Translations under genes and position numbers: made by a program | Assembly: GCF_000022545.1 (NCBI RefSeq) | Contig: NC_012883.1 | Span: 434,001-498,000, forward strand | Direction of reading: 5' to 3' | Source of the DNA: Thermococcus sibiricus MM 739 | Lineage (GTDB): Archaea > Methanobacteriota_B > Thermococci > Thermococcales > Thermococcaceae | DNA: 64,000 bases | Shown here: positions 23,368-25,113 of the stretch, piece by piece | Layout: the number at the start of each line of letters is the position of its first letter | Numbering within the stretch: position 1 is the first letter of the stretch | Notes under the pieces: generated by a model | Database searches by the model: none | The model's input: the letters and a program-made list of their open reading frames with translations, nothing else | What the model was told of the DNA's origin: nothing

Positions 23368-23486
23368 TTATAAAATTACCTAAAGATTTGCCGTTGGGCG
23401 ATGGCGTCCGCCCGGGGCTTCGGGCCCGAACCGCCCACAAGGGCTGATGACGCCTGTTCTCCGCTAAAACTTTAGGAGGCGGTAGA
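23368..23486 (+). ncRNA. Fluoride riboswitch (crcB motif) with promoter and ribosome-site platform
   Basis: A TATA-like CTTATAAAA (23368-23376) puts the start at about 23395-23397, directly on the aptamer. The RNA matches the crcB motif: GGGCGATGGCGTCCGCCC, then AACCGCCC-ACAA-GGGCTGATGACGCC. P1 pairs GGCGTC with GACGCC; P2 pairs GGGC with GCCC; P3 is GCCC-ACAA-GGGC; a further GC hairpin with a UUCG loop sits in the variable region. Past the aptamer CUCC (23459-23462) can pair with GGAG of the ribosome site (23475-23479), 7 bases from the ATG at 23487. With no T run, control is probably translational. Fluoride would switch on the toroid gene, fluC and the DUF190 gene. Confidence 0.93.
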
Positions 23487-24332
23487 ATGGGCTCGAAGCT
23501 AGGAGATTATGTAAAGCTTAGAGAGATTTTAAAGTATATTGAAGAGAGGAGACATGAAGATGGAGGTTACTGCTTTGTTTCCCTCTTGAATGAGACAAAC
23601 ATAAATGACACTTACTATGCGGTTAAAATCTACGACCTCCTAGGCATGAAAGTTCCAGAGCAAGAGAAAACTATAGGATTCCTTTACGACTCATTAAAGC
23701 CACAACAAGCAGTTGTTGCGGTATCTATGGCAATTGAGGGGTTGGCGATTTTAGGGGCAAAAGACCTCGCAAAGGACGGCCTTTCGCTGGTCTTTGAAAA
23801 ATATGATCCTCTCCAGGGTAAGTTTGCTGTAGGTCTTGGAGGGAGCGAGGAATTTGGGACTGCAACTCCACTTGAAGCAACTTACTGGATGCTTAGAGCA
23901 CTCAAGGCAACAAATCACAAAATCTCTCCAGAAGAAAAAGAGAAAATAAAAGAGTTCATCGAAAGCTTTAGAAAAGGGGACGGCTACGGATTAAAACAAG
24001 CTACAACCACCATGACTTATCAGGCAATATATTCGCTCAATTCTTTGGACTACAAGATACCAAAAACAAGCCACTTTCATAGATGTGAGGTTTACGGGGG
24101 CTTCACAGAGGTGCCCTATTCTCTCCCACCCTATCTGGAGCCAACGTTTTATGCATTAAGAGGGCTAAAACTGCTCGGTGAGAGGCCGCGATATGTGAAG
24201 GAGCATATAAACTTCATAAGAGCCCTTCAAAACCCTAACGGGGGCTTTAGAAGGAGTCTTGAAATGGGCATCTCAAACTTTCAGAACACTTATAGAGCTT
24301 TGAGGGCACTTGATGACCTTTTGGGCTTTTAA
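23487..24332 (+). CDS. Prenyltransferase/squalene-cyclase-like alpha/alpha-toroid protein, fluoride-operon leader
   Basis: A 281-residue protein built of repeats seen in prenyltransferase beta subunits and terpene cyclases: GG(Y/F)-type turns (DGGYCFVS, GKFAVGLGG, GDGYGLKQ, YGGFTEVP, NGGFRRSL), each followed by a helix of type TYxALRxL (DTYYAVKIYDLL, EATYWMLRAL, MTYQAIYSL, EPTFYALRGL, QNTYRALRAL). No signal peptide. It is the first gene after the fluoride riboswitch, so its expression should rise with fluoride; its function is unknown. Enzymatic prenyl transfer is not implied by the fold alone. Starts with ATG after GGAGG. Confidence 0.85.
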   Translation: MGSKLGDYVKLREILKYIEERRHEDGGYCFVSLLNETNINDTYYAVKIYDLLGMKVPEQEKTIGFLYDSLKPQQAVVAVSMAIEGLAILGAKDLAKDGLSLVFEKYDPLQGKFAVGLGGSEEFGTATPLEATYWMLRALKATNHKISPEEKEKIKEFIESFRKGDGYGLKQATTTMTYQAIYSLNSLDYKIPKTSHFHRCEVYGGFTEVPYSLPPYLEPTFYALRGLKLLGERPRYVKEHINFIRALQNPNGGFRRSLEMGISNFQNTYRALRALDDLLGF

Positions 24333-24356
24333 CGTCGGAATTTGGGGGCAGGAAAA

Positions 24357-24728
24357 ATGAACGCTAAGGTTCTCCTGGCAGTTGGCGTTGGAGGAATGCT
24401 TGGTGCCATAATGCGCTACAGCATTGCAGGTCTGCTTCCCGTTTACAAAGACTTTCCTGTAGGAACCCTCTTGGTAAACAGCATAGCAAGTTTTCTGCTC
24501 GGCTATCTCTACGGCTTGGTTTTCTTTGGTTACGAGGTCTCTCCCAATTGGAGAGTTTTCTTCGGAACTGGATTCTGTGGGGGATTAAGCACGTTCTCGA
24601 CTTTTTCATATGAAACGTTTAGCCTTTTGCGTGAGAGGGAGCATTTTCTTGCCCTTCTAAATATCTCGGCAAACATTATAATAACTGTAAGCTTAGTATT
24701 CTTAGGGTTTGTTCTTGCAAGGAGGTGA
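24357..24728 (+). CDS. crcB: Fluoride channel FluC (CrcB)
   Basis: A 123-residue four-helix membrane protein forming dual-topology fluoride channels that expel F- and protect enolase and pyrophosphatase. It has [11 protein letters not shown], the [19 protein letters not shown] pore helix with its conserved Asn, and [15 protein letters not shown], the STFSTF break that binds Na+ and lines the F- path. ATG at 24357 follows GGGGGCAGGA; a TTG five codons earlier is in frame but overlaps that site. Lies 24 bases after the toroid gene and under the same riboswitch. Confidence 0.95.
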
Positions 24729-24732
24729 AAGT

Positions 24733-25113
24733 ATGGTAGAAATCGAGCACTGGAATACTTTAAGAATGACAATTTATATAGGAGAAAACGATACTTGGCA
24801 TGGAAGGCCGCTCTACAAAGCAATAGTCGAAAAACTGAGAGAAATGGGACTTGCTGGGGCAACTGTTTATAGGGGTATTTATGGGTTTGGAAAAAAGAGC
24901 AGAGTGCACTCAAGCGACGTTTTAAGGCTTTCCACGGATTTGCCAATAATAATTGAGACCGTTGATAGGGGTCATATGATAGAGAGAGCTATAAACGAAA
25001 TAAAACCCATGATAAAGGATGGTATGATAACTGTCGAGCCGGTTATAGTGGTGTGGGTCGGGACTAAAGAAGAGATGAAGAAGTTCGAGGAAGATGCAGT
25101 AAGGGAAAAATGA
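24733..25113 (+). CDS. DUF190 (PII-like) protein
   Basis: A 126-residue protein with the DUF190 pattern: [53 protein letters not shown] and [12 protein letters not shown]. These ferredoxin-like proteins form PII-like trimers and are often found beside crcB, where they may sense fluoride or a nucleotide and gate the channel. ATG follows GGAGGTGAAAGT, and that ribosome site lies within the end of crcB, so synthesis is coupled. Confidence 0.9.

Follow-up and report, generated by a model that had tools for sequence, protein, structure and literature searches.

In Thermococcus sibiricus MM 739, the gene for an alpha/alpha-toroid protein is very likely the direct client of a fluoride riboswitch, which is predicted to act through a hairpin that masks the start codon of this gene. 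The locus is best explained as the Thermococcales-specific form of the fluoride-response operon. As a whole, the account we favour, with moderate confidence, combines this start-codon switch with a toroid that serves as a cytosolic fluoride-response protein beside export.

Organization of the fluoride-riboswitch locus

We analysed a window of 64,000 nucleotides (contig NC_012883.1, positions 434,001 to 498,000), in which the riboswitch, the toroid gene, the FluC gene and a DUF190 gene all lie on the + strand. The fluoride riboswitch aptamer (crcB motif, RF01734; 23388-23463) was detected by cmscan with 49.4 bits against a gathering threshold of 34 (E 1.1e-10, model positions 1-64 of 64) and is the single match in the whole genome. 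As in the Rfam fluoride riboswitch, both helices are present along with a perfect six-base pseudoknot, formed by six Watson-Crick pairs between the loop strand GGCGTC (23403-23408) and the 3' strand GACGCC (23449-23454). A TATA-like archaeal promoter box (AGCTTATAAAA, 23366-23376, with TTATAAAAT at 23368-23376) places the presumed transcription start near 23395-23397, at the aptamer, in agreement with the earlier note, which had the riboswitch begin at the transcription start. A TTTTTAAA-like box stands 28-31 nt ahead of the aptamer core GGGCGATGG in 66 of 83 homologous leaders. A divergent archaemetzincin gene (M54; 22664-23317, - strand) adjoins the toroid gene across much of the order.

Downstream of the aptamer follow the genes for a prenyltransferase-type alpha/alpha-toroid protein of 281 aa (23487-24332; PF00432, E 2.6e-13), the FluC/CrcB fluoride channel of 123 aa (24357-24728) and a PII-like DUF190 protein of 126 aa (COG1993; 24733-25113). 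FluC was matched over its full length by PF02537 (100.4 against a cut-off of 32.9, E 8e-29) and TIGR00494 (93.7 against 80.45), and DUF190, likewise at full length, by PF02641 (131.7 against 23.4, E 1e-38), with PH1503 (2dcl) as its solved homologue (E 4.7e-70). These profile matches confirmed the genes and coordinates given in the earlier note. The gap between the toroid gene and FluC is 24 nt and that between FluC and DUF190 is 4 nt, and no promoter-like box above background was found upstream of FluC in the window or in the window's genus; FluC and DUF190 probably share a transcript with the toroid gene here and use their own ribosome sites.

A predicted hairpin masks the toroid start codon

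Directly 3' of the aptamer, GCC UGUUCU... pairs with ...AGAAUG GGC, which brings the toroid AUG (23487-23489) inside a predicted hairpin. Its 5' arm spans 23452-23465 and its 3' arm 23478-23492, the latter holding part of the Shine-Dalgarno sequence (GGAGG, 23475-23479), the AUG and the GGC of codon 2. With energies computed for 37 °C, against about 80 °C for the organism, the hairpin of the window reached -18.9 kcal/mol and a z-score of -4.2 relative to dinucleotide shuffles, and other leaders went to z -6.5. The toroid AUG was masked in the predicted hairpin in 81 of 84 homologous leaders, with three (L015, L019 and L091) folding otherwise. In the hairpin register 96.4% of cells were paired, compared with 39-59% when it was slid by 1-3 columns. 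Because both strands are nearly invariant, the leader alignment holds no compensatory (double) changes in the 9-bp helix; a G-U pair is replaced by A-U in five of its rows. Of 84 toroid genes, 83 have GGC as codon 2 (Gly2), while at other conserved glycines one codon accounts for at most about 71%; across 60 conserved columns the median share is 44%. Constancy so far above that of other conserved codons points to selection acting on the RNA at the Gly2 codon.

The GCC at 23452-23454 belongs both to the pseudoknot strand and to the hairpin, in which it pairs with the Gly2 codon in the predicted off state, so aptamer closure and the full hairpin should be mutually exclusive. Without the GCC, the mean hairpin energy falls in strength from -17.8 to -10.0 kcal/mol. 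We propose that the riboswitch is a translational on-switch built on the toroid start codon. When fluoride is absent, the GCC and the following UGUUCUCCGC would pair with the Shine-Dalgarno/AUG/GGC region and mask the toroid start; when fluoride is present, the aptamer loop GGC would capture the GCC, the three outer G-C pairs of the hairpin would open, and translation of the toroid would follow. On the predicted leader structure, the toroid would be a protein induced translationally by fluoride in T. sibiricus. A terminator-type platform was rejected, as no U-run follows the hairpin in the sequence. The locus thereby differs from RF01734 riboswitches with a terminator, having instead a predicted hairpin over the start codon, and a client that is not a transporter. 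The predicted mechanism agrees with PMC8241225, which cites Speed et al. 2018 for an experimentally established, presumably translational fluoride switch in Thermococcus kodakarensis; this switch has been used as a tool.

A second fluoride riboswitch was observed in about a dozen Thermococcus genomes. At each of the six loci examined (L139:1918-1981, L140, L141, L146, L148 and L153) it heads a formate-hydrogenlyase-type operon (NuoH/HyfC, HyfE, MrpD/HyfF, HycE), a type of client on record by 2010 (PMC2864571). The pseudoknot strand GACGCC recurs in the start region there, GGAGGTGACGCC, which hints at another decoy-type platform.

The riboswitch and toroid are conserved across Thermococcales

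In counts taken from related genomes, which are not independent events, the toroid was found by protein search in 90 of 94 Thermococcales genomes (74 of the 74 of good quality), and the riboswitch scored above the cut-off in 86 of the 94 and at E <= 0.001 in 88. The earlier note had named homologues standing away from a riboswitch as evidence that would speak against it, and its proposal survived this comparison, the aptamer lying directly upstream of the toroid in 83 of the 84 leaders with a readable start. In these 84 genes the distance from the pseudoknot strand to the toroid AUG is 21-53 nt (median 32). As the arrangement recurs across the order, it is not due to chance. The toroid is under purifying selection, with dN of 0.06-0.11 against dS of 0.34-1.29.

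A toroid profile built from 51 members detected no relative among the other families of the class (sister orders, 21 genomes), and the two riboswitches reaching the cut-off there directly precede FluC-DUF190 without a toroid (L187 and L188). The simplest reading is therefore that the toroid is an insertion between riboswitch and FluC that arose in the Thermococcales lineage. The canonical operon of the sister orders has its three parts, riboswitch, FluC and DUF190, in the same order as here, whereas Thermococcales add the toroid, DUF6062 and coiled-coil genes between switch and channel. In the search for relatives beyond the phylum, a genome-contig scan gave Thermococcales matches only, and the viral contigs and plasmids searched yielded no toroid relatives.

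The added genes are found in most Thermococcus, where up to three of them, coding for DUF6062 and two coiled-coil proteins (CC1 and CC2), lie between the toroid and FluC (L080-L134 are examples for DUF6062 in this interval). DUF6062 (PF19538) carries two invariant C-x2-C/C-x2-H quartets (C17, C20, C55, H58 and C103, C106, C139, H142 in L006 numbering), and its predicted fold (AF2 pLDDT 84.8) had no match in the PDB. Every DUF6062 match in Thermococcales adjoins the toroid (55 of 94 genomes), with none elsewhere in the order. CC1 has about 100 aa, and CC2, of about 140 aa, has an N-terminus that looks ribbon-helix-helix-like. The window genome lacks DUF6062, and the coiled-coil genes are missing from its locus, so that the operon here is a reduced one; a CC2 relative with 32% identity is found in the same genome at a distance of about 169 kb.

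Riboswitch and toroid remain linked where FluC has moved away

In Pyrococcus (g3), a single riboswitch heads toroid-CC1-CC2-Trm5, and FluC-DUF190 lies tens to hundreds of kilobases from the toroid, with no riboswitch at the Pyrococcus FluC even at a permissive threshold (E up to 5). G020 is a second, separate case in which FluC is split from the riboswitch-toroid pair, and in G011 FluC is broken with riboswitch and toroid intact. Strong promoter boxes precede FluC in several Thermococcus with long gaps (e.g. L130, L090 and L093), and PMC4247193 gives the T. kodakarensis crcB gene (TK0514) a start site of its own, separate from the crcB RNA. These observations bear on the reading that the riboswitch serves FluC and that the toroid is a passenger between switch and channel, which would suit FluC as the classic client, its direct position behind the riboswitch in the sister orders, and its close spacing in the window without a promoter-like box above background. 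We consider such a passenger role improbable, as the predicted expression platform takes in the AUG and codon 2 of the toroid gene itself, the switch remains with the toroid in Pyrococcus and G020, and FluC of T. kodakarensis starts separately according to that source. A partnership of the toroid with FluC and DUF190, in assembly or in regulation, would account for the operon they share in most Thermococcus, but it appears still less probable given the Pyrococcus split, the toroids kept beside a broken FluC (G011) or none at all (G012), and the stand-alone FluC-DUF190 pairs of the toroid-free sister orders.

In the complete genome G012 (L103), of the Pyrococcus group, FluC and both coiled-coil genes have been lost and only a 3'-end remnant is left of the aptamer; the promoter, the hairpin and a complete toroid are kept. 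Retention of the full toroid under these circumstances suggests that its job may extend beyond fluoride. In G077 and G080 the toroid is broken with FluC present, so the toroid is dispensable in places, with assembly errors possible in these two genomes; DUF190 is also split in G080, which makes such an error possible there.

Fold and conserved residues of the toroid protein

The AF2 model of the toroid (pLDDT 90.5, pTM 0.90) has an alpha/alpha-toroid fold, in which the loop 115-125 is of low model confidence yet largely invariant and is probably mobile. The best solved folds found with Foldseek were the beta subunits of RabGGTase and FTase (TM-score to query of up to 0.76 for RabGGTase beta), and NCBIfam and PHROGs gave no match. 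A membrane or secreted protein was rejected, since the toroid has no hydrophobic N-terminus. At G000:C1:1118832-1119278, the same genome holds a second, much larger toroid-repeat protein (open frame of 651 aa) with weak similarity to the small toroid.

The fold is shared with the RabGGTase and FTase beta subunits, but the toroid has 281 aa, a different conserved set and replaced zinc ligands: in a weak, manually extended local profile alignment, the zinc-binding Asp and Cys of RabGGTase fall on Pro128 and Glu130. An invariant Asp-x-Cys motif is absent from the toroid family, whose sole invariant cysteine is C29. Toroid repeats and glycine-rich turns likewise recall squalene-hopene and other class II terpene cyclases, from which the toroid differs in having one domain only and no DxDD acid motif (0 of 84 members). 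The invariant residues D41, E130, T175/T177 and E218 stand at inner-helix starts, with Thr and Tyr or Phe close to each of them, and conservation extends to R255, R256 and R270; judging from the residues, the inner-helix starts look like a polar, acid-rich site. Toroids of Thermococcus and Pyrococcus carry a C-x2-C...C-x3-H pattern at residues 200-240 in window numbering (24084-24206), complete in 52 of 84 toroids, with the second and third Cys jointly missing in 26 of 84, the window and its genus included. Their joint loss suggests a structural metal site that was lost as a unit.

We take the toroid to have a prenyltransferase-beta fold whose known catalytic motifs are lost, and to be a ligand-binding protein or an enzyme. 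That it is an active protein prenyltransferase or a terpene-cyclase-like enzyme, altering lipids or lipid-anchoring proteins under fluoride, fits the PF00432 match and the nearest solved folds, and we regard it as very improbable in view of the aligned Pro128/Glu130, the lack of invariant Asp-x-Cys and DxDD motifs, and a size half that of squalene-type cyclases. The link to membrane lipids suggested in the earlier note was, for the same lack of zinc ligands in the alignment and of DxDD, not borne out.

Discussion

To our knowledge, little is known of how cells survive with fluoride beyond exporting it. The listed clients of fluoride riboswitches are mostly transporters and sensitive enzymes that are over-made. 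We modestly favour the view that the toroid is a fluoride-response protein inside the cell, working in parallel with export. It would act in the cytosol under fluoride stress, in concert with DUF6062 and the coiled-coil proteins in those genomes that have them. A more specific version, offered tentatively and well short of even confidence, makes it a new class of effector, in which a pseudo-prenyltransferase cavity binds or repairs a fluoride-damaged target independently of export and together with DUF6062 and the coiled-coil proteins; such targets could be, for example, metal-fluoride or metal-phosphate-fluoride species, or the metal site of an enzyme.

The strongest rival, which we hold to be unlikely, is that fluoride makes a housekeeping function of the toroid limiting (e.g. 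as a fluoride-sensitive metal enzyme), the toroid being over-made like enolase or pyrophosphatase. Near-universal retention, which includes G012 without FluC and aptamer, and the many invariant acidic residues would fit this role, and making more of a sensitive enzyme is a recognized strategy against fluoride (PMC11139923); broken copies in G077 and G080 and the absence of the toroid from sister orders argue against it.

The earlier note saw a toroid as first riboswitch-controlled gene and as a novelty. Control of the toroid is supported by the predicted leader structure, but the placement is not new: in PMC4247193 (2014), a crcB RNA before TK0513 rather than before crcB was remarked on as surprising. 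That T. kodakarensis locus is of the same type as the one in the window (in genome G024, too, the toroid is followed by FluC), and the text of PMC4247193 at hand notes the placement without analysing the TK0513 family, the Pyrococcus decoupling or the extended operon. The note's view that the toroid lies outside the described fluoride toolkit stands, insofar as the toroid is not among the fluoride-response proteins in the part of the 2024 review consulted (PMC11139923). In the literature searched we found neither the conservation across the order nor the separation from FluC, the mechanism at the start codon or the DUF6062/coiled-coil extension, although Speed et al. 2018 may treat the platform.

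A protein family that is very likely the direct client of a fluoride riboswitch throughout an order, and retains it even where the exporter gene lies apart, suggests that the fluoride response has a second arm. The start-codon hairpin offers a concrete model for archaeal riboswitch action, and the role of the toroid is testable in T. kodakarensis, which has good genetics.
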